This document shows positions 38,716 to 58,380 of a stretch of DNA of 64,000 nt, in pieces (position 1 is the first letter of the stretch; the number at the start of each line of letters is the position of its first letter). The stretch lies in contig CM074758.1 in NCBI GenBank assembly GCA_037355855.1, positions 4,437,001 through 4,501,000 on the forward strand, in the 5' to 3' direction. A program made the position numbers and the translations under genes. The notes beneath the pieces were generated by a model, which did not search any database, was not told the DNA's origin, and was given only the letters and a program-made list of their open reading frames with translations. This DNA is from Pseudo-nitzschia pungens. Its lineage: Eukaryota > Bacillariophyta > Bacillariophyceae > Bacillariales > Bacillariaceae.

Positions 38716-39095
38716 CAATTGCAGAAGCTCTCACTCTTTGGAATTCAACCACCTTAAAAGGAGCCTCTAGAACAACACATCATGCCCAGCACCTATTTTG
38801 ACATCTCTAATGTACCTCTAGAGTGGTAGCTAGTGTGCTCATGGTATATGCAACAGTGTTTGAACAGTATCCTCTGTAGTCGAACTATTTGCCAGCACTC
38901 CGTGCGGCAGCACTCCGTGCTGTACTGTTGTTGCTGCTCTCTATTGCCGAAGGGCAAATATCTTTACAGATTTTGGTTTATGACCGTTAAATTATGGTCG
39001 CTCAACATAATTAAAAATATAGAAGAGCCGTTAGTGCCCTAAGATTTTTTGATAGTAGTCGCCCGCACAATGTGCATGAAAATGGAAATTTTCCA
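38716..39095. other. Spacer, no gene seen
   Basis: 38805-38880 resembles 3215-3310 in the Copia-1 insertion. 38896-38922 has two copies of GCAGCACTCCGTGC. Confidence 0.4.
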
Positions 39096-39487
39096 GGGCC
39101 CTCCGGAACTGAAAAAAAAATCGCGCGTACCGCACTTTGTGTCGAGTCCCGTTAAAAAATATCAATTTTTACAACCGTGCCGTTCCCTAATGTAAAAGGG
39201 GGAAAATAATTTTTTAAGGGGTAAAAAACGTGGGTTTTTTTTCACCATCAATAACCCACGGGTTGCAACGTGGGTTTTTTTTCACCGTGAAAAACCCACT
39301 TGAACCCACGTGACTCCACGAACCCACGAATGGAATAATTGTGGGTTCATATGAACCCACGTTAACCCACGTTAACCCACAAAAATAACCCACGATAACC
39401 CACGATAACCCACGAAAACCCACGAAAACCCACGAAATAACCCATGATAACCCACGACTTTTTTCCGTGAACCCACGAACCCACGAT
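39096..39487 (+). repeat. Transposon left end: 15-bp TIR plus AACCCACG array
   Basis: TIR 39096-39110, ~115 bp of spacer, then a GTGGGTTTTTTTTCACC / AACCCACG segment and about 17 AACCCAC motifs on the plus strand to 39487. It aligns in inverted order with 58030-58380 over most of its length, including shared phrases TTAACCCACGTTAACCCAC and TTTTTTCCGTGAACCCACG. Confidence 0.88.
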
Positions 39488-39540
39488 TGTGGGTCAACTT
39501 TCGGTGAATGTTACACCGACAAGACGTGAGCGCTCATTAG

Positions 39541-39795
39541 CTCAACTTTCCGTGAAGCTAGTGAGCGCTCAGCTCATTTCCGTGAACGCTCTATATCGAC
39601 ATCAACTTTCCGTGAAGCTAGTGAGCGCTCAGCTCATTTCCGTGAACGCTCTATATCGACATCAACTTTCCGTGAAGCTAGTGAGTGCTCAGCTCATTTC
39701 CGTGAACGCTCTATATCGACATCAACTTTCCGTGAAGCTAGTGAGCGCTCAGCTCATTTCCGTGAACGCTCTATACATCGACATCAACTTTCCGT
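39541..39795 (+). repeat. 60-bp tandem upstream of gene A
   Basis: Four-plus units at 39541, 39601, 39661 and 39721, nearly identical, each with two TTTCCGTGAA motifs and AGCGCTCAGCTC. The array ends 12 bases before the gene A start, so it lies in the leader or promoter. Confidence 0.92.
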
Positions 39796-39806
39796 GAACC
39801 GTGAAA

Positions 39807-40598
39807 ATGCCGACAACACAGAAATTAAGAGCAGGATCGGGAGCTCAAGCAACAATTCTTACGAAATACATCAAACCTCCTCAATTACTTCCGAATCCAC
39901 AGCATCGGAGCAACATAGTGCTCCTAGGCCGCAAAGGAAATGAGTATGAGTTTTGTTATCTTCATGACAACGAATCAGGAAACGAAGATTTTGTTTCCAT
40001 GACTGGACCTTGCCGTTTTGTGAAGGTTGTCAAAGAAGGAGATCCGATGCTTTTTTTTAGTAAGGTCTACCAAGAGCCTAGTATTCCATGGGCAAATTCG
40101 AAAGCAAAGAAACTATTGTACAAAGATATAATGAACGGAGTAGTTCCTCTTGAACCCAAAGACCATAACCGGAGGATTACAATGCCGCTAAAAGAAATAT
40201 ATTTGATGCATCCAGAATATGCGGAATATCACTTCAGTAAGTTCTCAAGTAGATTGAGTAGCCTTCGCAAAACAATCAAATCAAGCAATCAAAGAGCAGA
40301 GACCGACCAAAAAGCTTTTGAATTGTTTATTGCAAACAACCCCATTTCATATTACAGTCACAAAGGCTATATTCAATGGCAGGGGTCGGAACAGCAGAAA
40401 TTGTTGTTGAAAGACATTGAAGATGGAATTGTGGAGGAATTCGGAAGTCGAAAGAAAGATCTATGGGAATCAAGAGACGAATATTTAGCTTTCCCCCTGC
40501 ATGTATTCTGTGACAAGGTTAAACAAGAGATTCGTACATCGAAATACTTCTACACATTAAAAACAAGGGGCAAGCAGGCAACTTACAAATATGCATAA
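39807..40598 (+). CDS. Transposon gene A: W-x-x-S repeat protein (263 aa)
   Basis: Start ATG 39807 (MPTTQKLRAG). The N-terminal ~90 residues (IVLLGRKGNEYEFCYLHD ... FVKVVKEGDPM) form a compact unknown domain. Two copies of a ~65-residue module follow: IPWANSKAKKLLYKDIMNG ... YLMHPEYAEYHFSKF and YIQWQGSEQQKLLLKDIEDG ... YLAFPLHVFCDKV, sharing W-x-x-S-x-x-x-x-L-L-x-x-D-I-x-x-G and a Y-x-x-x-P...F end. Modules like this, helical and rich in K, may bind DNA (inference). No intron is evident. It may be the transposon's second, DNA-binding protein, as PIF/Harbinger elements usually carry one. Confidence 0.72.
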   Translation: MPTTQKLRAGSGAQATILTKYIKPPQLLPNPQHRSNIVLLGRKGNEYEFCYLHDNESGNEDFVSMTGPCRFVKVVKEGDPMLFFSKVYQEPSIPWANSKAKKLLYKDIMNGVVPLEPKDHNRRITMPLKEIYLMHPEYAEYHFSKFSSRLSSLRKTIKSSNQRAETDQKAFELFIANNPISYYSHKGYIQWQGSEQQKLLLKDIEDGIVEEFGSRKKDLWESRDEYLAFPLHVFCDKVKQEIRTSKYFYTLKTRGKQATYKYA

Positions 40599-40672
40599 AT
40601 TAAATAGTGCACTACAAAATATAACTACAGCGACACAAAATTCCTACCGTACACCGAATTGGTTGTTTCGAA

Positions 40673-42080
40673 TCACAATTCTTCTTCGATTCGTTTTCTC
40701 TTCATTTGTTTGTTTGTACCTTGGGATTTAAATGATTTTTCCCCATACACAAATTTGAAAAAACGTTCTACTTTGTCTGTGAATGCCCAATTATTACCAG
40801 ATGAGGTTTCCGATCGCTTCATATCTTTTCCAATCTTCTGCAACATTGAACCGAAAGTCTTTTTGTCGAAGTCTTCAGGGATAAGAAAAAATAGCTCAGG
40901 TTGATGCTCTCCACTAGTGTTTTGTCGGAAAAAGTGCTTCATATCTTTGGATGCCTTTCCCTTGATTTGACTTGGTTGCGCAATCATTTCATCAAATACA
41001 ACCATCATTGTTTGAAGTTTGGGCTTTCCATTGCGCTTTTCTGCTTCCCATGTCGTGCTATACTGGAATTGTTTGATCATCTCTGAACACACGGTAAATT
41101 TTCTGGACGACGCATCATCTTTCACTTGTGCACAGGAAGATGGCCTTGAAAAAGTAGACCTCCTATATCCTTTTTTTTTCTTTGTTGAAAGTTGTTTCCT
41201 CTGTTTGCTGGTAGGATGAGGAAGTGAATAATGATCAAAAAGCATTTCTTCGAATGTCTTCCTCTTGCGATTTGGGAACTCAGAATACAAGCTCTTCACT
41301 GTGGTAGCCAAATCAGCGTAACTCAATGATAGAATAACTTGAAGTTTCTCCTCAACAGTTTTCCCTTTCAAATCCATACCATCGATCTCCTCATCCGCAG
41401 TATCAAGGTTATCGCTGCCTGTATCGTCACCGTGACCATCGCTTTTTCCCTCTGTATCCGAATGTTCACCGTCATTGCTTTCGCTGCGATGAGTATCATC
41501 GATCTCCTCATCCGCAGTATCAAGGTTATCGCTGCCTGTATCGTCACCGTGACCATCGCTTTTTCCCTCTGTATCCGAATGTTCACCGTCATTGCTTTTG
41601 CTGCGATGAGTTTCAGCACTGTTGCCGTTGCCGTTGCTCTCATCGAACTCAGGTTTGTTGCTGCGATTAGGAGTTTCACCATTGTCAATCTCAGAAGTTT
41701 CACCATACCCAAATTCGTCTTCGTCAGCATTGTTGCCGTTGCCGTTGCTCTCATCAAACTCAGGATCCAACCCAGGAGTTTCACATTCACCATTGACAAT
41801 CTTGAACTCAGGAGTTCCGCCCCTGTCATTGTCAACATGTTCTGCTTCTGGAAAACGCTTTTGTTTCTTCTTTGGGGGCTCACAACTTTCCTTGTTCCTT
41901 CGTGCAGCCTTGATTGCTTCCACTTGCGCTAATACAGCCAAACAAAAGAATGTCAGAAGCCTTGTCTCCATCGTAGTAGTACTGGACTTCACAGCAGGTC
42001 GACTCACCATCCAAGCATTTGCCTTCTATCGAAACAGGCCAAGCCAAGTTGAGATATTGCTCCCAAATGCAGAATTTCAT
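40673..42080 (-). CDS. Transposon gene B: acidic nuclear-type protein, one intron
   Basis: Best model: exon 1 42080-42008 (start MKFCIWEQYLNLAWPV), intron 42007-41929 (79 bp, GTGAGT ... TATTAG), exon 2 41928-40673; the phase-1 join puts both in one frame. Reading straight through 42010 instead would give a false signal-like leader made of intron sequence. Features: a basic PPKKKQKRFPE run (possible nuclear localisation), a long acidic D/E/S/N region with a 117-bp (39-residue) direct duplication (HSDTEGKSDGHGDD, 41384-41610), then a basic K-Q-R-K-Q-L-S-T-K-K-K-K segment and a conserved-looking C-terminus. No known domain recognised. It is divergent from gene C. Confidence 0.68.
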
Positions 42081-43108
42081 CCTGGATAATTAGTTTATGA
42101 CCTACCAAAGCAGCAGCTTCTGCTGCAGCAGCAGCAGCATATTCACATCATGGCTCAGTTTTTGTCACGATTTTCATGGTATATGTTTCGGATTTCGTGA
42201 AGGTTTTGATGAAAACACAAAAAATGTTGGCGTGGGAATGGAACATAATGAGTATGTTGGGAGTATGCGTTTCGGTTGTGATATTTCGTGAAGGTTTTGA
42301 TGAAAACACAAAAAATGTTGGCGTGGGAATGGAACATAATTAATAGACCGTTGGATCGCCTGGAGCGGAAGAAAATTTGCGCTGATTCGTTCTACACAGT
42401 GGTAGTGGTAAGGTTACCTAGGTAGTACTTTATGTTTCCCGCCAACAAAGACCAAGAAAAGCCAACACGAGGAATAAGCCAAAGTGCGAGGCAGTAAAAA
42501 AAAACAACATAGGCCCGTGTGCCCTTGGGAGGAATGAAAATTGATAGGTTGAACCGCGCGCATACTCCGGACGTTGGATCGCTGGCTAACGCTGAGGCGC
42601 TTCAGAACTACCACCACCCACATATGAACCCACGTTAACCCACAAAAATAACCCACGATAACCCACAATAACCCACGATAACCACGATAACCCACGAAAA
42701 AAGTGCTCCTTCTTTAAGCGTGAGGGTGCATCTATCTTGCTTCTTTGCACGTGAAGGATCCACAAACCCACGACTCTACTGATTCCGCAAGTAAAATGAA
42801 TCGTAAACTTGCTTCTTTCAAAGAAGCAAGGTTCACGGAGAAGGGTGCATCTTGCTTCTTTGCGCGTGAAGGATCCACAAACCCACGAACCCGCCACTTG
42901 GTCGTGTACTGATTCCGCAATCGTAAACTGTCTTGCTTCTTTCAAAAGAAGCAAGGTTCACGGAGAATGGCTGAACATTGATTGTCATTGGTTTTCTGCA
43001 AAATGAACGGGCACCGAATCGGTGCCCGTCAAATTTTGTCGCAATTGGCAGGGTTTGGACGCTCGAGAGTGAACTTCTCAAATTTTAGATCGTCGCATTT
43101 CTCTCACA
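42008..43108. promoter_or_regulatory. Divergent B/C promoter region with internal AACCCACG array
   Basis: Between gene B (start 42080) and gene C (start 43109). 42112-42140 is a (GCA) run. 42190-42247 and 42283-42340 are a ~58-bp direct duplication (AAGGTTTTGATGAAAACACA). 42614-42700 is an AACCCACG/ATAACCCACGATAACC array like those of the ends. 42730-42965 has two ~100-bp units with CTTGCTTCTTTC and its complement GAAGCAAG (hairpins) and GTGAAGGATCCACAAACCCA. No gene inside. Confidence 0.6.
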
Positions 43109-43336
43109 ATGGTTGTTTCCATAGCAGTGAAAAAGCAATTAGCAGAAAAAATTGAAAGTGCTGGAGGACTAGGCAAGTTTTTCAACGCTAATCGAGCCGA
43201 TCAAACACTTTCAAAGTTTCTTGACCAGGATATACGTTCTTACGGAAAGAGAGGTACAGCAAAACGCAAAACAATTCGTGATTTGTTGAAAAACTGGAGA
43301 AGCTATCCAGAAAAGAAATACGAACAGCTTCTCAAA
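43109..43336 (+). pseudogene. Transposon gene C, exon 1 (5' part, cut by LINE)
   Basis: ATG 43109 begins a basic domain: AVKKQLAEKIESAGGLGKFF, DQDIRSYGKRGTAKRKTIRD and LLKNWRSYPEKKYEQLLK. The composition suggests nucleic-acid binding (inference). The frame stops only because the LINE starts at 43337; the last 18 bases (TACGAACAGCTTCTCAAA) are repeated at 54268-54285, after which the exon continues. The joined model (this exon, 54286-54378, 54442-55228, 55301-56952) would encode about 919 aa. Confidence 0.75.
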
Positions 43337-43635
43337 TAATAATAATATACGTATTTAAATAACTTTAATCACCAAAGGTGAAACTAAATTACTCAGTCTG
43401 TAACCAGACTTTAACGTCGCCTCCATCATAGAGTCAGGACCCCAAGTGGCAGAACGACAAATTTTCAAACAAACCTTGAACATCAAGCAGGGAAAAGGAC
43501 AAACAAGTCCCACAAAAGAGGGACTTGAGAGAAAGTGAAATGGGAATGAAGATATTGGGATAAGATCCAGTATCAAAAGGGATGGGACAGGATGAGAAGC
43601 AGTAACAGAAGACAAAACCAAGGTACAAAGTGTAA

Positions 43636-46600
43636 TCAACCCTGAGGTCCAGTAAGCCAGGCTCTGAGAAGAGCAGCCTCTTGTTGGTATGGCTGCACTG
43701 GTGTGACAGGCGCTGCATATTGCTTCCTTGCAAGGTGGATGGTTGCAAGCCACTGCCGCTTGGCAGTCAGGGTGTAACCTTGTAGGACGTGGAAAGGGGT
43801 TTGTAACAGGGAGTGTGACTGGGGAAGTGCACCAGCTGCACCAATTGCCAATTCTGAAGTGATGGAAGCATCAAGAGATTGGTGTTGTTCAGCATCCAGG
43901 GTACCCCCAGGACCATGGAGTCGTTCATTCCTATAAGTCCAAAGATCCCAGGAGGTAAGAAAGAACTGATGGATGATAGCTGTAGCCCAACGTTTGGGAG
44001 AGCGCTTGCTTCCAATGTGGGAGTAGTAGTCAGCCTGAATTTGGTACCAGCGAGGAGACCACCTACCAAGAAGCCAGTTGTGCCAACCAATAGTCCTCTG
44101 TGCTCTGACAGCAGAAGCTATTGCAAATGAGTAAGATGATGGATAAATTCTCTGGCCCTTCCGAACTCTGGTGAGAAGATCCACAATGGCAACAACCAAT
44201 GATGGATCAGTTTGTTCAACTTCAAGCCTCTTCTGCAGTGGTCCCTTGAAAGCTGACACACTATGCGTGACAGCCCCAGTGTCCTTGCAGGAGAGCACAT
44301 GAGAAACCTTCTCGTTGTCTGCATCACACAATGGGCACCTGGAGTGATCCTGATACTGGTAGTGAAGGAGTTGGTTGCCAACACCAATGCATCCAGAAGC
44401 AAACTTGACAAACCACCTTTGCATGCCAGGAGGTAATCGCTTGAAGGCAGACAGATGGGCACACCAATGGATGGAACTCAAAACAGGTTGTGGAATGGGA
44501 ATATCATGGTGGGTCTGCCAGTATTTAAGAAGAGGAGGACCAGAAATGGCAACATGCAGAGCAATCTGATCAAACCTTGAACACTTGCATCCATTGAGAG
44601 AAAATGCCCAAGCCTCAAACACAAGTCTGGGATAGTGATGGGCAGAAGCTCTATGAACAGAGAGAAAGGCCTTTGCCATGCTGTCAACCTGATGATTGCG
44701 AAGGGCCCACCAATCAAGAAAGATTCCAGCTTGATGTCCCTGAACCCACTGAAAGTGCACAGAGATTGGCAGGGCAGAAAGCATGTTTCTGATGACATAA
44801 ACATAATCAAAAGACTTCTGGGAAATAACCAAAGGCCAAGATCCCTGAGCCTGTTTGAGAGCTGTGTCACCATCCAGAGCAATAGTGATAGAGCCAGAAG
44901 CAATATCAAAAAGATTCACCAGAGCAGTGCAACAGGTGAGAACTCCAATGATACCCGCCAGTTCACTCCTGTAGGATGACTGATCCTCAGGGGATCCACT
45001 GACAAAATTACAGCCAGTGAGGAACAATGAAGCAGTCTTGGTGGAGGTATTGGGTGACAAAATGAAAGCAGAAGTTCCTCTGAGAAGGTCCGGATCAAAT
45101 GAACCATCACATACAGCACTGGCAGTACCACTCTCAATAGCATCAACAAGGTGCTGACAGCCAGCCTGTGGTAGGGAATATTTGTGGAGAAGTACTCTTG
45201 GAGACGCACAGAGTGCATCAAAGGCATCTACTGGGGAGTCTGGAAGAGAATCAAATGGATTGTACTCCAGAGGATCCATGTCAGGAGGTTCAGAAACAAA
45301 AGCAGAGGACCCAACAACGCGTACAACTTGTCCACAAATAACAGGGCAGACAAGCACATCAGCACAGGCTGGTTTGTCAGAAATGAGTTCAGAAGTGACC
45401 CTGTATCTACCCCTGCCCTGGGAGGTGCTCACAATCCAGCCAGTAGAAGTTTTGAAGAATATTCTGTTGGTGGATGGAGACAAAAACCAAGGCCAGAGAG
45501 AAGCTGTCTGGGCAGAGAGCCAATGCCCAAGATGGAAAGAAGGAGCCAGTGCCCTGGCTGCAGGGGGTGGACAGGGGGGAAGAAAACATGTCTGAAGAGC
45601 CTTAGTCCATAAGCGCTTTGCTGCTGGAGGCCAAGATGGAGGACATCTCGGCCAGTCAAGATGATCCCTCAAGTGATTGGAGGAGGTCAGCTGGAAAGCC
45701 ATGGGAGAGAGTCTTTTTCCATCTGGAGTACAAATGTCAGCAAGGGAAATAGCCTTGAGGGACATGCGCATGTGATTCAAGAGGGACAAGTCAGCACCTC
45801 GGAAGCCAGAGTTGACAAAGGCTTGCATGAGATAACAGTCATTGGAACGTAACAGAGGAAGATCTGGGAAGTCTTCAAACAAGCTCACAGGGTGAACAGA
45901 GAAAAACTTCCACACATGTTTGTACCAGCAAGGAGTGACGTAGGAAGCAAAAGGATGATATGGGGTGACACCAAGATGGAGAGGAATGCCAAGTTCGAGC
46001 CGTAGAGACTCAGCAGTTAGCCTGAGAATCCTACCAGTTTGTGAGGACCTGACAGATTCCTGAAAGAGGGTGGCAATATGACTGAACTCTTGGAGGAGGT
46101 ATGGATGGATGAATCCAAAGCCTTGATAGAGGGAAGGACCATAGAACACATGTCTGGGAAATGTCCGTGACATCCCTGCTTTATTCAGCACAGGAACAAG
46201 AGCTGGGTGAATTATCTTAGTCCAAGTGGCCTCATCAAGTTGCGTGACAGGCATGGGGTATTCAACAGACTTCATGAAAGAATACTTGAAGGTGTAGAGG
46301 GATGCGCGCTTCTCACACTTGGAAGCCCTGAGTTGAGAGCCAAAAGACTGAGACTGTGACTTCAAGTGAGCAATCTGTGCTTCCTCATTGCCATCCATGG
46401 AGATAAAAACCCCAAGGGTCTTGTCAGCATGATCAACTTCAAAACGATCCAGGGTAGCGCGATTGCCATTCTTGTCAGCAACTGAGAAGTCACCAGGCAT
46501 GTCAGCAATGGAGCGATAATCCCAACCGGATCCATTCCATTTGAAATCAATCAAATAACAGAAGGATTTGGCAGGTTCAATAGCACCACCAGTGGCAATA

Positions 46601-49476
46601 ATCCCACCAGCCCACCGGTCAAGAGCTGCCTGAAAGTCAACAGCTAATTCCTCACCAGATGTGGAGGAATCAGAGCCAGCACAAAACAAATCTGTGTCAT
46701 CCACAAAGGCAAAACCCACAAGAGAAACAAGTTGCAGTGACAATGAAGTGATAAGATGGACACCATGCCCAGCCTGTTGCATCATTCGGAAGACAATTGT
46801 TGACACCAAAGCCCAAAGAGTTGGACCAATACCATTGCCTTGGCCACAACCACTGAGAGGAACAGGTTCAGCACCATACACAGGACCTGACCGACCAAAA
46901 CCAGTTTTGATGTGGTGCTTGGCAAGTTGCAAAGTAGACAAAAGAACCTCACACACATGTGCAGGAACCCCAAAGCTTTGGAGAGTGAGACCTGCAATGG
47001 GATGAGAGATCCTATCATAGCAGCCCTTAGCATCATTCATAGCAACAGCACCAGATCTGCGCTTCTGCCTCAACACATCACAGATGAGCTTCTTGTTCAG
47101 GCAGGTGTTGATGGCCTTGTGGTGTTTCCTGCTTCCATGTTGATCAACAGCCACGGCATTGGCACGTTCAGCATGGGCAAGAATGCGTCTGCCAATCATC
47201 TTGTTGTTGATTTGGAACTCAGGAGACATCAGCTGAATAAGCCTCATCTTATCCACTCTATATTCACCAGGTTTCTTGAAGATCTCAACATCAGTGATGA
47301 CCTGCCAAGCAGAAGGAGAGAAGCCAACAATCAATGGGACGGATCTCAGGAGAGTGTCAAACTTGTTCAACTGGGGATCAAGGGCAAAAGCCTTGTGGTG
47401 GGCAAAACTCAAACAAGAAGGTTCACTTGCTGTGCGTTCCCTCTGACGTTTCCAGGCAGCAGCATTGTCAGCTGGACACACTGAATAGTCAAAGGGGGGC
47501 AAACTCAGAATAGAGTCAGGGACTTTGAGACAGGCAAGAAATTCAGAAAGGTATTTGTCAGTGGCAGGAGGAGGGATGTATGTGCCATCAAGGACTTGGG
47601 AAGCAGCATGGGCAGTGCCTAGGTAGCCAAGGTCTTGAATGAAGGAGGGAGTCATGGAAGGAGTGCCAAGACACTGCTGTTGACGCCGGACATTGGATGC
47701 AGCCATAGCTGGTACCATAGTAGACTGGGACTCCAAGACCTGTTCAACACCATCATGGCCAACTGCAATAGCGCGCAAGACTGCTGACTTGTTGACACGT
47801 CCCCGAATAGACCGAGCAGCGAGACCAAGCTCTCGTTGAAGACGTTCCCTACGCATCCTGGCACGAATCTGAGAAGCATGCTGGTTGTGAGGCTTGCCTT
47901 CAGCAAGAAGTGCATCCACCAGGCCTTGATTGAAGGAGTCTCTCCATGAGGGGGCCAATTTCTTCACTGCCCGGTATTGCTTGTAAGCTTGTTTCAGATG
48001 GAGGAGAGCACTGGAAAGGTCACTGTGTTCTCCTTTGTAGAGAGAAAGCTTGCAGGCCAACCTTTTCAAAACAGTATGACTGGTGGACACACCCTGTCTC
48101 AACTTAACAACACGCCGCCAAAAGTCAATGGTATCACGATAGACTTGCAGCTTAGGTGACCATGGAACCAAACCAGCTCTAGTGTGGCAGAGGTTTTGTT
48201 CAACAGAGAGCCTGAGAGAGGTAGAGGTGGCATGGAGTACTTCATATGTGGTGATGAGATCAGTTCGCACAGAAATATCCCCAGACTGAAACTGAGCCAG
48301 TAGGTGCTCCAGCTTAGCTTGGAGAGAAAACACTCCAGCCTTGAGAAAGCAGTGCCTCACTCGCTTGAAATACCGTTGTCGCAGATGAGGATGGGAGGAC
48401 TGGAGTTTGGAAAGAGAGAATCTCACAGGAGGTGGCAAATATTTGCCCATGAGGCTGCAATTACAAACCTCAATCCAGAGCATGCGATGGTCAGATTCCA
48501 TACCATGGGCACCTCCAAAGGGACAATACCCAGCCCTGAGAACATCAACATTCTCAGAGACCCAAATGGCATCAATTGGTGTTCTGGTAGTGTTTCGGTT
48601 GTGAGTGGCAGGAGGAGAAGACGTACTATGAAGGGTAAGAATGGCATCTCTGAAACCAAGAGCCTTGAGCTCAAAAGACAAGCCATCAGTCCTGACATCA
48701 GCATTCTGGTCAATCCCAACAATGACTTGATCACCTGCACCCAGGCAGACCTGAAGGGCAGCAGTTAAATCCCTGTGAAAGAGAATGCATGGATTGGGAC
48801 TGAAAAGATTTTCAGCGGCTTGAAAGTATCGGTACTGTTGATTCCAGACTGAGCCAAGATCCCTATCATTTTCAACTGGGCAGTAGGCAGAAAACATGGT
48901 GACATTGTAGCCATCCCTGCCCTGAAACTTGACAAAGGACCATCTACCAAGACCAGATGGATCAGCTCCATGTGCAACCTTGTGTGAGCTGAACAGCTGG
49001 TCAATGGAAAAACCTGTACCGCCAGGCTGAAGCCAAGAGCAGGCAGAAGCTTCATGCTTGTTGTTAGCAAGATAAGAAAAACTTGAGGGACTGACATGCT
49101 TCATGCGCCGATTGAAAAGGTCACAGGGCAGGAGTTTGGATTCATTCAAACAATGTTCAGCAAAAAGAGCCACACTGGCATTGCTCTTGACAAATTGACG
49201 GGCGTTGTGCTTGGACATGGACATAAAGGCAGCTCTGCGCTGTGGTCCAATGTTTTGGAATGTGATGATGGTGGAGTTAGAGGATGGAGCTTGAGGAAAG
49301 GAATGACCAAAAGTGTCAGAATCCTTAGCAGCAAGAGATTCTCCATGAAGAGTTAATTGGACAAAATGAGGGACAGGGGAAGAGTCGGAGGGGGAAAAAG
49401 GAGAAACAGGAGAAGCATTGATGGGATTTGGATTGAAAGGCATCCCATCACACCTCATATCAGAAGAGCTAACCAT
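43636..49476 (-). CDS. LINE ORF2: endonuclease, reverse transcriptase, RNase H (1946 aa)
   Basis: Start chosen at ATG 49476, which overlaps the ORF1 stop (ATGGTTAG); the open frame itself extends to 49548. Residue positions counted from 49548: AP-endonuclease to ~360 with QNIGP (~92), AEHCLNESK, GIDQNAD and ESDHRMLW (the SDH motif). Reverse transcriptase ~760-1000 has AVAMNDAKGCYDRI and FAFVDDTDLF (catalytic VDD, ~951). RNase H ~1480-1630 has CDGSF, YRSELAGI, ALDGDTAL and NHQVDSMAK. A zinc-like CPLCDADNEKVSHVLSC lies at ~1740. All key residues are present, so the enzyme could be functional. It nicks target DNA and primes reverse transcription of the LINE RNA. Confidence 0.93.
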   Translation of the reverse strand: MVSSSDMRCDGMPFNPNPINASPVSPFSPSDSSPVPHFVQLTLHGESLAAKDSDTFGHSFPQAPSSNSTIITFQNIGPQRRAAFMSMSKHNARQFVKSNASVALFAEHCLNESKLLPCDLFNRRMKHVSPSSFSYLANNKHEASACSWLQPGGTGFSIDQLFSSHKVAHGADPSGLGRWSFVKFQGRDGYNVTMFSAYCPVENDRDLGSVWNQQYRYFQAAENLFSPNPCILFHRDLTAALQVCLGAGDQVIVGIDQNADVRTDGLSFELKALGFRDAILTLHSTSSPPATHNRNTTRTPIDAIWVSENVDVLRAGYCPFGGAHGMESDHRMLWIEVCNCSLMGKYLPPPVRFSLSKLQSSHPHLRQRYFKRVRHCFLKAGVFSLQAKLEHLLAQFQSGDISVRTDLITTYEVLHATSTSLRLSVEQNLCHTRAGLVPWSPKLQVYRDTIDFWRRVVKLRQGVSTSHTVLKRLACKLSLYKGEHSDLSSALLHLKQAYKQYRAVKKLAPSWRDSFNQGLVDALLAEGKPHNQHASQIRARMRRERLQRELGLAARSIRGRVNKSAVLRAIAVGHDGVEQVLESQSTMVPAMAASNVRRQQQCLGTPSMTPSFIQDLGYLGTAHAASQVLDGTYIPPPATDKYLSEFLACLKVPDSILSLPPFDYSVCPADNAAAWKRQRERTASEPSCLSFAHHKAFALDPQLNKFDTLLRSVPLIVGFSPSAWQVITDVEIFKKPGEYRVDKMRLIQLMSPEFQINNKMIGRRILAHAERANAVAVDQHGSRKHHKAINTCLNKKLICDVLRQKRRSGAVAMNDAKGCYDRISHPIAGLTLQSFGVPAHVCEVLLSTLQLAKHHIKTGFGRSGPVYGAEPVPLSGCGQGNGIGPTLWALVSTIVFRMMQQAGHGVHLITSLSLQLVSLVGFAFVDDTDLFCAGSDSSTSGEELAVDFQAALDRWAGGIIATGGAIEPAKSFCYLIDFKWNGSGWDYRSIADMPGDFSVADKNGNRATLDRFEVDHADKTLGVFISMDGNEEAQIAHLKSQSQSFGSQLRASKCEKRASLYTFKYSFMKSVEYPMPVTQLDEATWTKIIHPALVPVLNKAGMSRTFPRHVFYGPSLYQGFGFIHPYLLQEFSHIATLFQESVRSSQTGRILRLTAESLRLELGIPLHLGVTPYHPFASYVTPCWYKHVWKFFSVHPVSLFEDFPDLPLLRSNDCYLMQAFVNSGFRGADLSLLNHMRMSLKAISLADICTPDGKRLSPMAFQLTSSNHLRDHLDWPRCPPSWPPAAKRLWTKALQTCFLPPCPPPAARALAPSFHLGHWLSAQTASLWPWFLSPSTNRIFFKTSTGWIVSTSQGRGRYRVTSELISDKPACADVLVCPVICGQVVRVVGSSAFVSEPPDMDPLEYNPFDSLPDSPVDAFDALCASPRVLLHKYSLPQAGCQHLVDAIESGTASAVCDGSFDPDLLRGTSAFILSPNTSTKTASLFLTGCNFVSGSPEDQSSYRSELAGIIGVLTCCTALVNLFDIASGSITIALDGDTALKQAQGSWPLVISQKSFDYVYVIRNMLSALPISVHFQWVQGHQAGIFLDWWALRNHQVDSMAKAFLSVHRASAHHYPRLVFEAWAFSLNGCKCSRFDQIALHVAISGPPLLKYWQTHHDIPIPQPVLSSIHWCAHLSAFKRLPPGMQRWFVKFASGCIGVGNQLLHYQYQDHSRCPLCDADNEKVSHVLSCKDTGAVTHSVSAFKGPLQKRLEVEQTDPSLVVAIVDLLTRVRKGQRIYPSSYSFAIASAVRAQRTIGWHNWLLGRWSPRWYQIQADYYSHIGSKRSPKRWATAIIHQFFLTSWDLWTYRNERLHGPGGTLDAEQHQSLDASITSELAIGAAGALPQSHSLLQTPFHVLQGYTLTAKRQWLATIHLARKQYAAPVTPVQPYQQEAALLRAWLTGPQG

Positions 49477-52396
49477 GATCAGAAGGAAACCGAGTCTGTC
49501 GCACGGAAGAAAGAGTTGCCGGAGCTGATTTGGTGGAGACATTGGCATGGCTCAAATCACTGACACTAGCATCATGACTGGAAGAGAAAGCAATTGCAGC
49601 AACTCCAAGCCTCAATGCAGAGGCTGCATCTTCCCCACCACCGGCAGCAGGAACTGCAGTTGAGGACTCAGGAGAGGCCACAGGGAGGTCACCTGCCATG
49701 GCATCATGGGGAGGGTCAGGAACTTCAGGGGGAACAACAGGAGAGATACCAGGGGAGGCATCAGTCTTGGCCACATGGGTAGGATCACCGCCAGGAGGAA
49801 CAGCACCTGCAGGCGCTGAGGCCTGGACATCAGTGAGATTGGAAGTGCCGGTCGCTAAAGTATCCATAGATTGAGAGTCATCAAAGCCTCCACCACCACT
49901 GTCAGCACGGGCTTGGAGGTTAAAGTGCAAATCCAGATCAAAAGTGAGGTCTGGGGCAAGGTCAACTGACAAGTCATCATCAACAAGTTCCCAATCTCGT
50001 GCATCCCCATCACCAAAAAAGGGAAGAGAGTCATCCTGCATTGGATCTGCAGCAGGTGCAGTTTCCACAACACAATTGACAGCAGCATCCCAATGGTAAG
50101 CTTCCATTTCAGTCAAGCACTCAGAAGAGAACCATTGTCTAACACAAGAACCATAATGAGCTTCCAGTATAATAGGCAGGAAAGACAACATGGCCATTGC
50201 TTCAGCCTTGGTAGTGATATTGTACAAAGCAAGGATCTCGCCTCGGTATGAACTGGTATCAACAGAAAGAAAAAGAGGCCATGACCAATTGTCACGGGTT
50301 CTGATGCCCAGAAGCACACTGCGCAGTGTCTTCAAACCCAGCCCTTGGCCCAAGTCAACTGGAAGATCAAGATCAACTACCCCCAAAACAGGAGCAGTTT
50401 CATGGCTCTCAATAAATTTGGCTTGGCGGTGCTTAGCCTGGCGAACAGTCTTGAGCTTGGAGGGGGGAAGAGGTCTGTCAGAAGGATTGGTAGCTGTCTC
50501 AATAAACTTGTAGAATTTACCATCAGGTAAAGAGGCAATGTCTGAAGGGTTGCAACGGTTGAACTGGGCTTTGAGGAGCTTAACAGTTTGGGCGCGCTTT
50601 GTTGCATCACATAAAACATGAGCAGCCAGAACCGGATTGGAATCAGGAGTTCTGGAGTTGTCAAGACTGATATTCTTCCTGATAACAGCAATAGGACATG
50701 CCTGAAACCTGGGATGAGTCTGAAGCAATTCGTTGTAGTGGTCAAGATCAAAACTCTGCATGTAAGATCCAAGGAGAAAGCCACAGGTGACAACAACTGG
50801 GGCCTGTATGTGGTCATATTTCAGCTCCATGTCACGGTCTCTGAGCCTCTGGAGCAATTGTGCTGAAAAGAGTTTCTCCAGGGAAGCACTGTGTCCCAAA
50901 AAGAAGCGTAGATGAGGGGCAGTTCTACTGCGAAGCCAGAGCTGAGCAACATACAATTCCAAGGTCTTCCTGTCAGGAAGTGTCGTCCAAAACTTGGTAA
51001 CAGGCTTGGCCTTGGGGTTGAGCCTGGCTCTGGAGGGAAAAACATACAACACCAGGCGCTTGTCAACAGTCCATAGAAGATCCAAAGCTTCCTTGAGAGA
51101 CTTGAGCAGCTCATCATATAGTTCCCCAGGGCGTTGTGACATCAACCTTGGAAGGGACAGAGTGACATAAGAACTATGAGAACACTTGGTGCCAGCAGTG
51201 ACATCCACTGGAGCTCTAGAATCACTGGAGCAAACCCCTCGGCGTTGGAGGAAATGCCCAGCAGAGGAGGACAAGACAGTAGCATCACCACCACCAGGAA
51301 GAAAGGACACTGATTTGGAAGTGGAAGCATCATCAACTGCAGTTGGCGCAGGTGTAGGAGGTCGCTTCTTGAAATGCCAGTGGGAGCCAAGCACCTGATT
51401 GGCTGCCAACCAAACTCTTCCTTCAGTGCTGGGCAAAAGGTTACCTTCACAATACAGGTCATCAAAACACTCAGGAGACATCTTGGCCAAACCAATAAGA
51501 CATCTCTTCAGAGCATGGCCTGAAGGTTGCTTGGTCCAGTCTGCAGAGGCTTGAAAGCAGAGAGAAGCAAGGGAAACCAGGGACTCCACAGAAGCAGTTC
51601 TCCACTCAGGGTTGTCAGGAAAAGCTTGAGCATATGCTGGAGGGATGGCAGACTGACAGACATCATGGATGGATTTCTTGTCATTCCCATCTTTCTTGCT
51701 GAAGAAGTGAGTGGGACTAGGACACCCAGTCCATAGCCGGGATCCTGCTGGAGTTTTACGAAGAGTGTGGATAGGGGTGGGAATGGAAGCACGACCAGTA
51801 AAAGGCCCCTTACCGTAGAAGCACCAGAGGAAGGAATCTGAGTGAGCTTTGTTGGCAGCAGCCAGGGCTTTCTTGCGCAGGGCATGTCGCTCTGCAGACG
51901 GTGTGTCAGAAAGAAATGCAAGAGTAGCTTGTTTCAGACTAGACTTGGAAGGAGAGACCTTGGAAGGAGGGTGCTTAGAGTCTGAGTGCTCAGAGCCTGG
52001 CTGGCCATCCCTAGACGTCGCACTGTTGGACTTTCCACTGTTGGGCTTCCCACTGTTGGACGTCCCACTGTTGGAATTTCCACTGTTGGACTTCCCACTG
52101 TCGGACTGCCCACTGCCTGAATGCCCTGTGTCTGAATGCCCAGTGCCTGACTGCTCAGTGCTCATATCAACATCATCTAGTGCACCAGTAGACACAGCAG
52201 AAGTGAAGGACATATCATCATCAGAAGGGAGTGAATCCCTAGCTGTACGGGGAGAGGGAGGGGGAGAGGGAGTAGCCTGAAGAACGGAACCAGCAGGTAG
52301 TCGGCGGGAAGGGGTCCCCGTAAAGGCGCGTTTGTTTGAAGGAGTGTTAGCCAAGGTAGACCTTTTTCGCCTGGAAGCTGGCGGGGGGGGAGGCAT
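49469..52396 (-). CDS. LINE ORF1 protein (975 aa)
   Basis: The start at 52396 (MPPPPPASRRKRSTLANTPS) is favoured over the upstream in-frame codon at 52594, because the stretch between looks like leader (TFVGVLQYIFWIH ... YQRPSQ). After a basic N-terminus comes an S/N/G repeat (NSGKSNSGNSNSGTSNSGKP, near 52020-52150), then a long globular part (SLPRLMSQRPGELYDELLKS, FWTTLPDRKTLELYVAQLWL), and an acidic, proline-rich C-terminus. No CCHC knuckle. By analogy with other LINEs it should bind the element RNA. Its stop TAG overlaps the ORF2 start. Confidence 0.85.
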   Translation of the reverse strand: MPPPPPASRRKRSTLANTPSNKRAFTGTPSRRLPAGSVLQATPSPPPSPRTARDSLPSDDDMSFTSAVSTGALDDVDMSTEQSGTGHSDTGHSGSGQSDSGKSNSGNSNSGTSNSGKPNSGKSNSATSRDGQPGSEHSDSKHPPSKVSPSKSSLKQATLAFLSDTPSAERHALRKKALAAANKAHSDSFLWCFYGKGPFTGRASIPTPIHTLRKTPAGSRLWTGCPSPTHFFSKKDGNDKKSIHDVCQSAIPPAYAQAFPDNPEWRTASVESLVSLASLCFQASADWTKQPSGHALKRCLIGLAKMSPECFDDLYCEGNLLPSTEGRVWLAANQVLGSHWHFKKRPPTPAPTAVDDASTSKSVSFLPGGGDATVLSSSAGHFLQRRGVCSSDSRAPVDVTAGTKCSHSSYVTLSLPRLMSQRPGELYDELLKSLKEALDLLWTVDKRLVLYVFPSRARLNPKAKPVTKFWTTLPDRKTLELYVAQLWLRSRTAPHLRFFLGHSASLEKLFSAQLLQRLRDRDMELKYDHIQAPVVVTCGFLLGSYMQSFDLDHYNELLQTHPRFQACPIAVIRKNISLDNSRTPDSNPVLAAHVLCDATKRAQTVKLLKAQFNRCNPSDIASLPDGKFYKFIETATNPSDRPLPPSKLKTVRQAKHRQAKFIESHETAPVLGVVDLDLPVDLGQGLGLKTLRSVLLGIRTRDNWSWPLFLSVDTSSYRGEILALYNITTKAEAMAMLSFLPIILEAHYGSCVRQWFSSECLTEMEAYHWDAAVNCVVETAPAADPMQDDSLPFFGDGDARDWELVDDDLSVDLAPDLTFDLDLHFNLQARADSGGGGFDDSQSMDTLATGTSNLTDVQASAPAGAVPPGGDPTHVAKTDASPGISPVVPPEVPDPPHDAMAGDLPVASPESSTAVPAAGGGEDAASALRLGVAAIAFSSSHDASVSDLSHANVSTKSAPATLSSVRQTRFPSDHG

Positions 52397-54267
52397 GGTG
52401 GGGCTAGGATCGTCTGAATAGGCGTGTTGGCTCGGGCGCTGGTAGGCTGTCAGTGTTAACCTGTATGGATATATACAGATGGGTGTATCCTGGAAACAGG
52501 GTACAGCAGCAACAACAAGGGTAACCTTGGTCTGGACAAGGAAAAGGTCCCTGTGGATCCAAAAAATATACTGGAGCACACCCACAAAAGTCACTGGGGA
52601 ACTCAGAAATTTTTGCTAAAAAACGAGCAAAATTTGTCTCACACTTGGAGCACAAAAACTCTGCGCGCGGAAGAGCTCTGCAAATCGTGTAGCTTGTAGG
52701 CTTGTACTCGGCAAATCGTGTAGGCTTGTACTCGTACTGTACTCCTAGCTTGAAAATTGTGCAAATTTGAACAATTTTGCAGCTACTGCAAATCGTGTAG
52801 GCTTGTAGGCTTGCAAATTCGAATCGGATACGGTTCGAATTGAAATACAGCAGCCCACCGGGAAGCTAGTGGCTTGAAAACAGGGGCTTTAGTAGGAACA
52901 CTTAGGGACCGGGGAATATCAATGGCAGGGCACACTTAAAAGGCTCAGGAGGGAACTTGAAGTTCAAACTCGCGAGTACTTATAAGTGGAAACAGTATCC
53001 AGGGGCAATTGGCTTGAAAACAGGGACCTTGAGCGAGACACTTAGGGACCAGGGAAGCTTCTTGCTTGAAAACAGGGGCTGTAGTAGGAACACTTAGGGA
53101 CCGGGGGAAATCAATGACAGGGCACACTTAAAAGGCTCAGGAGGGAACTTGAAGTTCAAACTCGCGAGTACTTATAAGTGGAATCAGTATCCAGGGGCAA
53201 TTGGCTTGAAAACAGGTACCTTGAGCGAGACACTTAGGGATCAGAGAAGCTGCTTGCTTGAAAACAGGGGCTTTAATAGATAGATCTAGGGACCAGGGGG
53301 AGGCTTGTGTCTTGAAAACAGTGTCGAACTTGAAGTTCAAGTTGGGGTTGCTTAAGAGCGAAAACACTTAGGGAGCAGGGAACTCGCGAACACTTAGGGA
53401 CCAGGAGAATTGTAGTCTTGAAAACAAGGGGCGGTAGTAGCTGTAGTCTTGGAAACAAGAGTACACTAAGTAGTAGGTACTTAGGGATCGGTTGGTCTTG
53501 GCTCGAAAACAGATGTAGTAGGGGAGCCTTAAGCGAAAACACTTAAGGACTAGGGGGGTTGGCTAGGAAACAGGGGTACTCTTAAGTGATAAACACTTAA
53601 GGAGTAGTGGGCAATTGGCTTGAAAATAAAGGGGGAACTGGAAGATATGCTCGCGAGGGACCTTCTAGAGAGGGGGGTATGTATGTGTTCGACAACTTCA
53701 ACTTGAAAAGACTTAGGGAACTCAGCAAGGAACCTTGAAGAATGTAGAACATTAAGTGGATATCACTTAAGGGGCTTGAAAGACTGTATAGCGTTAAATA
53801 ATAAGGTAGCTTGGAAACAGATCGAAAAACAAACCGAGCTCGGAGACAAACTGAGCGTGGAGACTAACCGGAGCAGAGCTGCTGTAGAATTAGTACGGCA
53901 ATTGCTGTAGAAAATTATGTGTCCTTGTTTTCGGTCGTGTTGCTTGTTGCTTGCCGACAGAGCTGCTGTAGAATTAGTACTGGGAGCGCTGTAGAAAATT
54001 ATGTGTCCTTGTTTGCTTGTGTTGCTGCCGAATCGATCGACCGACCGACAGGAAACAAGGAACCAAAGCAACCAAAGGAAGCAAGGAGCAGCCAAACAAA
54101 CAGCAGAATCAGATAGAGGAGGTCACTGTTAATAGGTGTAGTGCTTGGTGTTGTTGTAGGAGCTTTAGAAGTGAGGGAGATATTAAAGGGGAAATGTGTG
54201 TAGAAAACTACGTGTTTTAAGTACTGGAACATCGGAACGTCGGACAAAATCGCGCGTCGCAAAATTG
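52397..54267 (-). promoter_or_regulatory. LINE 5' region with 192-bp monomers
   Basis: GGCTTGAAAACAGG-type monomers start at 52872, 53064 and 53256 (period 192 bp), then degrade into CACTTAGGGACC/CTTGAAAACA fragments up to 53770. A separate ~85-bp duplication (GAGCTGCTGTAGAATTAGTA at 53875 and 53960) lies near the 5' end. Such tandem monomers in a LINE 5' UTR usually act as promoter units (known from mouse L1; inference here). Confidence 0.75.
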
Positions 54268-54285
54268 TACGAACAGCTTCTCAAA

Positions 54286-56952
54286 ACTTTGAATGTTCTT
54301 CCGCATTCAGCACGATATCGAACGGCTGAGGAGGACGAGGAGGACGACTACGAAGAAGAAGAAGAAGAGGAAACAGAGGTGAGATTGTTTTTCCGTGAAC
54401 TTGATTTTATTTTCTGTGAATGTTATCTCACTTCTTTCTAGCTGCCATTTCAATCCCCCCGACGAGTATTGTTCCAATCACCATTTGAGACTCGTTCTAA
54501 ATCTGAAGCACGTCCAACGCCAAAGTCAAGTGAAGAAATGGGTCCTACGGTTTTTCCAACGATTCCAATGAACATTGTGCGCAAGATCAATATTGACTTG
54601 CAGAATCCACACAAGAATGGCCCGTGGATGTTTGTTGTTGCCAATAACTGCTATGTCCCAGAAAGCGGTGCTAAGATGGATAAGATTGTCATGTCTACAC
54701 CCCTCACTGATGGACTTGATATGGCACAGGGTCGATACATCGTGAAAGTCAGCGTAGATGGGAAGATCATTTATGCGCGAACACCCTTTCATCCCAACTT
54801 CTTGATGACCGGTGGTGATAAGAACTTCGTAGGGTGTGATACACAGACAATTGATGCACACAAGGCTTTTGCTTTGAAACTCACTCGGGATGAAGTCACA
54901 AGAGATGATCGTACGGAGTGGATCGAGTATCATCTACCACACGGCTACCATGTGACCACCCAGTACTTCAACAATGTCAATGGAGGCAATGTTGGTGTTC
55001 CCGACTGTGGGGCAGATGGACTATGGTCAACTCATCTCAGATGTGAAATGTATAGTGGTTGGATGGTACCTCCAAATCCGCGTTCATCTGATGCTTCTCT
55101 GCGTGAAGGTTATCCACATACAAAAGCTGTACTTTATGTCCAGTTGGCCATCACCAATACAATTGAACTTGTTGAGAGGACCTCAGTCGACCGAGTACAG
55201 TCAGCATTTGCAGATGCTTTTCGTCTGGGTGAGTGGTAGTAAATTCAATGCATAATGGGTAGTAACACAATGATACGAAACTAAACATTTTTTTTTCTAG
55301 GTTCTCCATCACCTCCTCCCGACGGCCCAGATAATGTATCTAGTTCGCAAACAACTAAAATAGAAACAGGAGGAGTCAGTTCGCAAACAACTAAAACAGA
55401 AACAGGAGGAGTAGTCAGCTTTCAAACTCCAACAACGGAATCCAAAGGTGGACAGTCTGTGGCAAGCTCATTTGCTGCAAGCTCATCGCAATTTGCTTCC
55501 AGACAGTCATCGCAACCATCTTTCGCTTCCGGACAGTCATCGCAACCATCTTTCGCTTCCGGACAGTCATCGCAACCATCTTTCGCTTCGGGACAGTCAT
55601 CGCAACCATCTTTCGCTTCCGGACAGTCATCGCAACCATCTTTCGCTTCCGGACAGTCATCGCAACCATCTTTTGCTTCCAGACAGTCATCGCAACCATC
55701 TTTTGCTTCCAGACAGTCTGCTGCAAGTTCATCGCAACCTTCGAGACAGTCATCGCAACCAACTTTTGCTTCGAGACAGTCTGCTGCAAGTTCATCGCAA
55801 TCATCTTCTGCTTCGACTGCTGCAAGGTCATCTTTTGCTTCGAGACAGTCTGCTGCAAGTTCATCTTTTGCTTCGACTGCCGCAAGGTCATTTGCTTCGA
55901 GGTCATCTTTTGCTTCGACTGCCGCAAGTTTTGCTTCGAGACAGTCTGCTGCAAGCTCGCAACCATCTTTTGCTTCGAGACTGTCTGCTTTTGCTTCGAG
56001 ACAGTCTGCTGCAAGTTCATCGCAACCATCTTTTGCTTCGGGACAGTCATCTTTTGCTTTGTCTGCGTCGTCACTACCTTTGTCTGCAAGCTTATCACAA
56101 CCATCACAGCCATCTTTTGGAACGTCTGGTGGGCACGGTCAGCTTGCCAGAAACTCTCCCGATGAGCAACAACGTCCTGCAGCCGGTGAGCAAGGAGACG
56201 GTCAGGAGTCTATAGATTTTCCATCTCCGGCAGCTCCATCTCCGCCAGCACCATCTCCGCCAGCTCCATCTCCATCTCCATTTGCAAAATATAGTCAAGA
56301 AATTGATGAGATGCTTGAGGACATTGAACTGCCAAATATTACTGTAGATTGGTTCTCACCGCCTGAAAATCCTGACCAGCACAAGCCCCCACCACCCGGT
56401 CCTCTTGACCAGCAGCGCAAGCCCCCACCACCCGGTCCTCCTGACCAGCGCAAGCCCCCACCACTCGGTCCTCCTGACCAGCGCAAGCCCCCACCACTCG
56501 GTCCTCCTGACCAGCGCAAGCCCCCACCACCCGGTCCTCCTGACCAGCGCAAGCCCCCACCACCCGGTCCTCCTGACCAGCGCAAGCCCCCACCACCCGG
56601 TCCTCCTGACCAGCGCAAGCCCCCACCACCCGGTCCTCTTGACCAGCAGCGCAAGCCCCCACCACCCGGTCTTGACCAGCGGAAATCACCATCACCCGGA
56701 CAGAAGCGCAACGAGGCACCACAGTGGAGTTCTGATGATGAGGATGAGTTTCCGAAACGTCCTCCTGGTCAATTTCGTAGAAATCTGCTTCGTGAACAAC
56801 TCCATGGCAAGTTTGGTACTCCTGATAATCCTGCGTTCATCAGTACATCAGTACGTGTAGGGGGCAAGAAGTTGAAGCTGAAATCTAATCGCAATCCGAA
56901 CAGTGCTGTCATTGACGATCTTCATACTAACATTTGGTCCAATATGAAGTAA
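54286..56952 (+). pseudogene. Transposon gene C, rest of exon 1 and exons 2-3
   Basis: Exon 1 resumes at 54286 and ends 54378 after an acidic run (EEDEEDDYEEEEEEETE). Intron 1 is 54379-54441 (63 bp, GTGAGA ... TTTCTAG), intron 2 is 55229-55300 (72 bp, GTGAGT ... TTTCTAG); both keep the frame. Exon 2 (54442-55228) encodes a globular domain of unknown family (NIVRKINIDLQNPHKNGPWM, VPESGAKMDKIVMSTPL, GYHVTTQYFNNVNGGNVG). Exon 3 holds ten-residue repeats (SSQPSFASGQ, 55500-55730), an S/A/F-rich region, and eleven-residue repeats (RKPPPPGPPDQ, 56400-56690), then a basic C-terminus (RVGGKKLKLKSNRN). Silenced at its start codon side by the LINE. Confidence 0.72.
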
Positions 56953-57006
56953 ACTTTGTAAATTATACTACGAGTACCACCTTCACAAAACGTGATGGAT
57001 ATGCTT

Positions 57007-57954
57007 CTAAATTTCCAATGACGCCATCAATTCTGCAACTTCATCCTCCGGTCCACCAAAGACAACATCTTCAATGAGTACGTCAAACAAAGGTTCATTT
57101 GCCTCAATTTTGTATTCGCAAATAACAGCAACAGCTTCAAAGGCATTAGCAATCTTTCCCACACCGTGCCGAAATCTGCTGCTTAGAACTTTAAAACTCT
57201 TACACATCCCATTAAAATCTTCGTGTCCTTTGAGAGCTCGGGTTTTGAATGTCTTCACTCCGTAACTGTCATGAAGGTTTGGGTATGAAACTGTTTTGTC
57301 GTGGCCACGGTATATTCCATCTCCGATTGCCTTCTGCTTTAACATTAGTAGCCGTTCTTCCAATCCTTCTTCAACAAAGATATTCAAATCATTTCTTCCA
57401 GCTTTGAATGGACCATTCATCCATATTACTCTTCGTGTTGCGAGAGAAATTCCTATTTCATAATTGATACCGGCTTTGTTGAATTTATGACTGAAGTATT
57501 CCGAATCTTGTGAATATATTTCATGTCCGGGCTCTTCAATCCATACATGTGTGCCATCAACAGTCATCACCCATGTTTCACCAAAGCTCAAGTCATCAGG
57601 CCACACTATCTTTCTTGTTTTCAATGCCTGTATTTTTTCAATCATCTGCCAAATTGGGCCACGAGCGTAGCGTGAAGTCAAACCGAATAATGTTTCGAAA
57701 TCGTCTTCAAGGGGATACTTTCGAAGGTATAGAACTGCACGGAGAAACCATTTAAAGTTTACTTCGAACCCTTCCTCTGCCTGCAGATCCTTGTAGATTG
57801 TGCATAGCACATCGGGTGAGGCACCAAACTTTGAGTTGAATCTACCGCCGTTGCTCTTTTCGTTGCCCCGGTCGATTTGTTTTCTTGAGTAGTTTGCAAT
57901 TAGCAGGCCTTCAATGAGCATGTCATCTTTGGTGACAACAAGATCGTTATCCAT
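57007..57954 (-). CDS. Transposon gene D: PIF/Harbinger-IS5-type DDE transposase (315 aa)
   Basis: Catalytic triad by spacing and context: D133 in TVDGTHVWI, D212 in AIGDGIYRG, E245 in RALKGHEDFN (D-79-D-33-E). Around it are family-like blocks: SHKFNKAGINYEIGISL, VIWMNGPFKAGRNDLNIF and VLSSRFRHG. The N-terminal ~120 residues include FNSKFGASPDVLCTIYKDL and WFLRAVLYLRKYP, like the helix-turn-helix region of these enzymes. Single exon, intact. The start (57954, MDNDLVV) lies ~75 bases inside the right AACCCACG array, in the same relative position as gene A at the other end. It would cut and join the 39096/58380 ends. Confidence 0.85.
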   Translation of the reverse strand: MDNDLVVTKDDMLIEGLLIANYSRKQIDRGNEKSNGGRFNSKFGASPDVLCTIYKDLQAEEGFEVNFKWFLRAVLYLRKYPLEDDFETLFGLTSRYARGPIWQMIEKIQALKTRKIVWPDDLSFGETWVMTVDGTHVWIEEPGHEIYSQDSEYFSHKFNKAGINYEIGISLATRRVIWMNGPFKAGRNDLNIFVEEGLEERLLMLKQKAIGDGIYRGHDKTVSYPNLHDSYGVKTFKTRALKGHEDFNGMCKSFKVLSSRFRHGVGKIANAFEAVAVICEYKIEANEPLFDVLIEDVVFGGPEDEVAELMASLEI

Positions 57955-58029
57955 GGTAGTTCAGTCGACGTTCACGCACAATTGGTGTTGGGTTGACGGA
58001 AAAGGTGATGGGACATTCACGGAGGTCGA

Positions 58030-58380
58030 AGGTGGGTTCTTTAATCATGGGTTCGTGGGTTCACGGAAAAAAGTCGTGGGTTATCATGGGTTATTTCGTG
58101 GGTTTTCGTGGGTTTTCGTGGGTTTTAGTGGGTTTTCGTGGGTTATTTTTGTGGGTTAACGTGGGTTAACGTGGGTTCATTCGTGGGTTCTTTTTCACCG
58201 TGAATAACCCACGAATGCAACGTGGGTTTTTTTTCACCGTGAAAAACCCACGTATTTTAGGGGGAGGAAAAAATAAAGGGGGCGGTCACGGAGAATGAAT
58301 GTAAGTTCACGCAAAACAAATCAGTCCCGAGTTGACACAAAATTGCATGCGCGCGCAAATTATTTAGTTCCGGAGGGCCC
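58030..58380 (-). repeat. Transposon right end: AACCCACG array plus 15-bp TIR
   Basis: Inverted counterpart of 39096-39487. On the plus strand it reads as CGTGGGTTTT and GTGGGTTAAC repeats to 58255, then ~110 bp of spacer and AGTTCCGGAGGGCCC (58366-58380). Confidence 0.88.

Follow-up and report, generated by a model that had tools for sequence, protein, structure and literature searches.

The window, a 64,000-nt stretch of Pseudo-nitzschia pungens DNA (C1:4437001-4501000; the genome comprises 66.9 Mb in 28 contigs) to which all coordinates without a contig prefix refer, contains a DNA transposon bounded by terminal inverted repeats (TIRs) and carrying a DDE transposase gene, gene D, together with three further genes, A, B and C. 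A diatom origin agrees with the 11 matches of the genome to PF03842, the silicon transporter family that marks diatoms, all of which exceed the cut-off (best 774.7 bits); among 14 control genomes a single one gave a match, which fell below it. The reading favoured here, to which a probability of roughly three in four is given, is that the transposon is a cut-and-paste element of about 8.3 kb belonging to the PHIS (PIF/Harbinger-ISL2EU-Spy-Nuwa-Pangu) superfamily, that it was later split by a long interspersed nuclear element (LINE), and that the products of A, B and C would serve it in accessory functions. A preliminary description of this DNA had taken the entire 19.3 kb between the TIRs as one element. 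Alignment with four other full-length copies resolves this length into 8.3 kb of element and a 10.93-kb insertion, and the 19.3-kb element was rejected because the nested LINE, which had gone unmentioned, makes up the excess. The features of the locus are listed in Table 1.

Ends, target sites and subterminal arrays

The TIRs of the window copy match perfectly over 15 bases, as previously described. The 15-base sequence has 42 exact matches in the genome compared with none for a backward-read control, on which basis chance TIRs were rejected, and 32 of these matches form 16 facing pairs, so that both ends are seen together at 16 places of the genome. The ten matches that lack an exact facing partner, among them L026, whose partner has one mismatch, were excluded from the duplication count. 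Identical sets of three bases flank both sides of all 16 examined pairs (CAG in ten, CTG in five and CCG in one), so the duplicated target is CNG; because this duplication takes the first G of the repeat, the TIR proper is GGCCCTCCGGAACT, of 14 bp and not 15 bp.

The inverted ends, given earlier as about 390 bp, are 393 and 338 bp long and are 74 % identical over 338 aligned bases; an inner part of about 138 bp is the only portion at 97 % identity. The ends consist largely of AACCCAC arrays. Counted on either strand, this motif has 18 occurrences in the leftmost 405 bp, 14 in the rightmost 340 bp and six in the 140 bp between the divergent starts of genes B and C, and none in the 6,492 bp of element interior examined. 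Two diverged families, designated fam2 and fam5, have different motifs (AAAAGTGCAAGTTT-type in fam2 and GTCCTCAAC in fam5), which are likewise mirrored at both ends and nearly absent inside; an array between B and C was found in neither. The end arrays have the layout that would be expected of a family-specific protein binding the ends, and the array between B and C suggests self-regulation in the window family.

The element lies inside the terminal ~30 bp of what looks, by eye, like a fam5-type right end, TTTTTTCCATAATGTTC followed by CAG (39060-39096 and 58380-58405). A minisatellite with units of 22, 44, 67 and 177 bp is found a short way to the left of the element (38003-38372).

Table 1 Features of the transposon locus in window coordinates
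Feature	Position	Strand	Details
Left target-site duplication	39094..39096		CAG; identical CAG at 58380-58382
Left TIR	39096..39110	+	GGGCCCTCCGGAACT; its first G also belongs to the CAG duplication
Left subterminal region	39097..39488	+	AACCCAC array
Gene A	39807..40598	+	263 amino acids; small beta-barrel and two tandem W-x-x-S three-helix modules
Gene B	40673..42080	-	Acidic, 442 amino acids; exons 42080-42008 and 41928-40673; intron 42007-41929 (GT..AG)
Third AACCCAC array	42616..42697	+	Between divergent B and C start codons
Gene C	43109..56952	+	Exon 1 43109-43336 and 54286-54378 (LINE-split); exon 2 54442-55228; exon 3 55301-56952
Nested LINE	43337..54267	-	ORF1 49469-52615; ORF2 43636-49551; later insertion, not part of the element
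Gene D, DDE transposase	57007..57960	-	ATG at 57954; 315 amino acids
Right subterminal region	58043..58365	-	Mirrored AACCCAC array
Right TIR	58366..58380	-	
Right target-site duplication	58380..58382		CAG

The transposase and its accessory genes

The product of gene D matches Pfam family PF13359 (DDE_Tnp_4) with an E value of 1.2e-07 and 31.9 bits (cut-off 24.8), and its triad D135/D214/E247 (P0001 numbering) has spacings of 79 and 33, which bears out the earlier assignment of a DDE transposase with a D-79-D-33-E signature. Homologues of gene D number 69 among 957 database candidates; when 22 relatives are aligned, D135 and D214 show no variation and E247 almost none. Among the three fam5 copies the catalytic E is kept in L040; L041 and L042 may be dead, because K replaces this residue in both. 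A midpoint-rooted tree of 24 D proteins, with no outside reference sequences, groups the window protein with those of fam2, fam35 and metagenomes, while fam5 plus fam6 (100/100) and the long branch of fam54 stand apart from it.

Three further genes lie beside the transposase, as had been noted. Gene A encodes the W-x-x-S motif twice (W98/S101 and W194/S197) and has 60 database homologues, one of which is named as coming from a Bacillariaceae assembly and two of which contain a SAP domain. In the predicted model of the protein (mean pLDDT, predicted local distance difference test, 91) the N-terminal barrel is Tudor/KOW-like and the modules are weakly FF-, homeodomain- or SANT-like. The earlier statement that none of the three proteins resembles a known Harbinger partner can be assessed in part: Pfam gives no Myb/SANT match in A, the likeness to SANT in the fold comparison is weak, and A is found with the transposase at most of its loci, as given below. 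Gene B has one intron, and its C-terminal domain recurs at other transposase-linked loci. Gene C has two introns and exons of 321, 787 and 1652 nt in the window, which give the 919 amino acids previously estimated when exon 1 is read across the LINE; in L012 the protein has 960 amino acids, and the frames of C are open in L012 and L011.

The genome was searched with A, B, exon 2 of C, and D, and matches within 20 kb were grouped into loci, giving 25 loci for A, 24 for B, seven for C and 26 for D. A copy of D lies within 20 kb of A at 19 of the A loci (random mean 0.40, largest 4), within 20 kb of B at 15 of the B loci (random mean 0.35, largest 4; 2000 trials in both cases) and within 20 kb of C at six of the C loci, the random trials covering A and B only. 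Seen from the transposase, A or B is near D at 24 of its 26 loci. The accessory genes mostly travel with the transposase, in keeping with their description as part of the element, and their interpretation as lone host genes was rejected on these counts; the A and B loci that have no transposase within 20 kb would agree in part with host genes free of the ends.

The full set A, B, C and D is present in three diverged families, namely the window family, fam2 (9.4 kb, target-site duplication CTG, B/C pair inverted) and fam5 (7.8 kb, target-site duplication CAG, genes in another order). A, C and D are found together in five families, the three above, fam35 and fam6, the last of which also has a long frame like a Ulp1-type protease (match below the cut-off, in the piece scanned). 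Between the window family and fam2 the proportions of nonsynonymous (pN) and synonymous (pS) differences are 0.17 and 0.79 in D and 0.20 and 0.88 in A, synonymous sites being saturated, and conservation is lowest in B and C (33-35 % at the amino acid level). Homology of C was obtained between the window family and fam2 (E 3e-45, 29 %), fam2 and fam6 (7e-06), window family and fam6 (0.001), and fam5 and fam35 (2.1e-05); the window family and fam5 compared directly gave no significant match (E 7.5), and a profile of window family plus fam2 against fam5 plus fam6 gave E 3.3e-05 with a probability of 72. For B the E values are 7e-11 (window family and fam2), 6e-17 (fam2 and fam54), 1.5e-06 (window family and fam54) and 1.1e-07 (fam5 locus). 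In metagenomes, the A homologue P0125 and the D homologue P0037 are probably on the same contig, because each lists one contig of 8,222 bases from the same two sources.

Several results limit the case for A, B and C as regular parts of the element. No D was found within 20 kb of six of the 25 A loci and nine of the 24 B loci, no gene B was found in fam6 or fam35, and neither A nor C was found in the 3.9 kb fetched for fam54; the single-sequence scores of C are weak. The strongest competing explanation is a two-gene element of NuwaI/Harbinger type, made up of D and its partner A, in which B and C are captured passengers that play no part in transposition. A transposase with a single partner is the usual make-up of known PHIS elements according to the available parts of two publications (PMC4482050, PMC9179366), and the B loci without D and the low conservation of B and C agree with such passengers. 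This explanation is nonetheless considered unlikely, as C is present in all five of the diverged families named above and B in four (window family, fam2, fam5 and fam54), and this recurrence, with gene orders differing where known, speaks for genes that were retained rather than picked up once by chance.

Other arrangements of these genes were observed in the genome. L065 (C5:5021500-5030500) and L066 (C6:3317300-3326300) share a duplicated block, no shorter than 8.9 kb and 99.3 % identical. It encodes a Ulp1-type protease (PF02902, 4.1e-21), a protein with the B domain and a third protein of 304 amino acids, with no transposase match there, and is possibly another transposon that has gene B in common. 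The fam6 locus (L046, L061 and L062; C6, about 2995.4-3007.6 kb) holds A, D, C and a 1224-amino-acid Ulp1-like frame with a C-terminus that is zinc-finger-like by eye; of its five copies, four reach 97.8-99.6 % identity with L043 in a comparison of 3.8-3.9 kb. A further family, of six copies (L051-L056), combines a distantly related D with a protein bearing the B domain; of five right ends read, four run ...CCGACCGCTC and then CTG (three) or CAG (one), and the fifth has ..CTC and then TTG or a variant. At C1:4311206-4319988 there are fam35-type C and A genes, with no D match within 20 kb of the A locus.

Nested LINE, copies and mobility

The insertion in the window copy is bounded by an 18-bp target duplication (43319-43336, repeated at 54268-54285) and ends 3' in a TTATTATTATT-type tail. 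Its minus-strand frames match Pfam RVT_1 (E 1.6e-11), and Pfam matches to the endonuclease, RNase H and zf-RVT domains are all below the cut-offs. Gene C is broken in the window copy because the LINE sits in its exon 1. The LINE makes the window copy composite in this one respect, but that the locus combines two or more elements, with four genes that do not belong to one transposon, is very improbable: the same four genes lie between the same ends without the LINE in L009, L010, L011 and L012, and fam2 and fam5 hold the four genes within TIRs of their own, with duplications CTG/CTG and CAG/CAG.

The 16 TIR pairs comprise the window copy, the four other full-length copies (8,183-8,484 bp) and eleven short copies of 896-1,228 bp, which are composed of pieces from either end of the complete element, usually 300-500 bp apiece, with a short middle. 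The five full copies differ by 0.23-0.57 % in substitutions over aligned bases, gaps left out, and are taken as recent because they are nearly identical; judged from these sequences, the element is recently mobile. All four gene frames are open in L011 and L012, while in L009 gene A has a stop and a portion of C exon 2 is missing, and in L010 genes B and D are interrupted by stops.

Empty sites, named in the preliminary description as support for a transposon, were seen for L009/L010 and for L025. The joined flanks of L009/L010 equal, by eye and apart from the length of a G-run, the next unit of the minisatellite that is interrupted there. For L025, each of the 40 places scored, out of 369 candidates, aligns with the joined flanks over no fewer than 196 of the 200 bases spanning the junction, and the best match is 98 % over all 200 bases. 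The flanks of L009 and L010 are identical within their common minisatellite, and these two copies could be one insertion duplicated with its surroundings; spread of the copies in general by segmental duplication or recombination, which this shared minisatellite would favour, is considered extremely improbable, given that the flanks of the other 14 pairs differ from those of L009/L010 and from each other, with perfect 3-bp duplications, and that L025 has an empty site.

Placement among known transposons and proposed mechanism

In the available part of Han et al. 2015 (PMC4482050), PHIS elements are sorted by their target duplication, which is TWA in PIF/Harbinger, AT in ISL2EU, ANT in Pangu and CWG in NuwaI, with other groups besides. 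The element described here has a DDE_Tnp_4 match with a conserved triad, and TIRs with a short target duplication in 16 of 16 pairs, as in PHIS; the target is CWG in 15 of the pairs and CCG in one, and is NuwaI-like under the rule of that publication because of CWG. The element is therefore placed in the PHIS superfamily, its target being of NuwaI type and its gene set a variant one; it may belong to NuwaI itself, the comparison with that group being by description and not by sequence. It resembles NuwaI in its DDE transposase of Harbinger kind, its 3-bp CWG duplication and, if the shared G is counted, in TIRs that begin with GGG. NuwaI elements, as described in the available text (PMC4482050), mostly have two open reading frames (ORFs), the second with Myb/SANT, average ~4.5 kb and come from 16 animal genomes, whereas the present element has four genes, no Myb/SANT match, a length of 8.2-8.5 kb, a diatom host and one CCG target.

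With PIF/Harbinger the element shares the DDE_Tnp_4 transposase, a 3-bp duplication, a separate partner gene and short derivatives; that group differs in its TWA target, compared with CNG in all 16 pairs here, and mostly has two genes in the excerpted account (PMC4482050). The earlier name of Harbinger/IS5-type transposon is thus apt for the DDE_Tnp_4 transposase with its three genes, but the CNG target takes the element out of the classical PIF/Harbinger group. ISL2EU elements also have a related transposase, a second protein and TIRs that often start with GG, and differ by an AT duplication, a YqaJ partner and a THAP-bearing transposase (PMC4482050, in part); Pfam found no YqaJ or THAP match in the present element. 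Pangu is set apart by duplicating ANT and not CNG. Spy has a single transposase ORF and is not known to make a target duplication, compared with four genes and a 3-bp duplication here. In En/Spm (CACTA) elements, which have a transposase of a different superfamily, an accessory DNA-binding protein of TnpA type acts on subterminal motif arrays, and the likeness to the present element would be one of working only. Harbinger-like elements have been reported from Thalassiosira pseudonana, with gene content not given in the portion of the report available (PMC2806351). No description of the four-gene set was found in literature searches on Harbinger elements and diatoms, Repbase being outside the search.

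According to the available part of one report (PMC9179366), the Harbinger transposase goes into the nucleus together with its Myb-like partner, and it is this partner that binds the TIRs. In the proposed cut-and-paste PHIS element, D would cut and join the ends at CWG sites, and A, in place of the Myb-like partner, would attach to DNA or chromatin, read the family-specific subterminal arrays and deliver D to the ends, perhaps together with the exon-1 domain of C. B and C would be further subunits or regulators, and the AACCCAC array that separates their divergent promoters would allow the same DNA-binding protein to control both genes. A broader proposal is offered tentatively, as somewhat short of probable: the families would form an ancient diatom lineage of Harbinger type with a four-part machinery of D, A (a chromatin-type barrel with tandem FF-like modules instead of Myb/SANT) and dedicated B and C proteins, in which every family would have an A or C of its own that recognises its arrays, and the array of the window family would also govern the B/C promoter.

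Harbinger-type elements are usually described as two-gene machines, and four genes kept across diverged families, with a partner that has no Myb/SANT match, suggest that quite different accessory proteins can serve such a transposase. Because a single genome holds near-identical copies, two of them with four open frames, as well as matching short derivatives, what the extra proteins do can be tested directly; the element is also a candidate tool for delivering genes into diatoms.

Elsewhere in the window, positions 20001-24000 have a GC content of 56-57 % (the window is mostly at about 40-49 %, with one other 2-kb step at 55 %) and contain long overlapping frames on both strands, the longest of 1185 amino acids.
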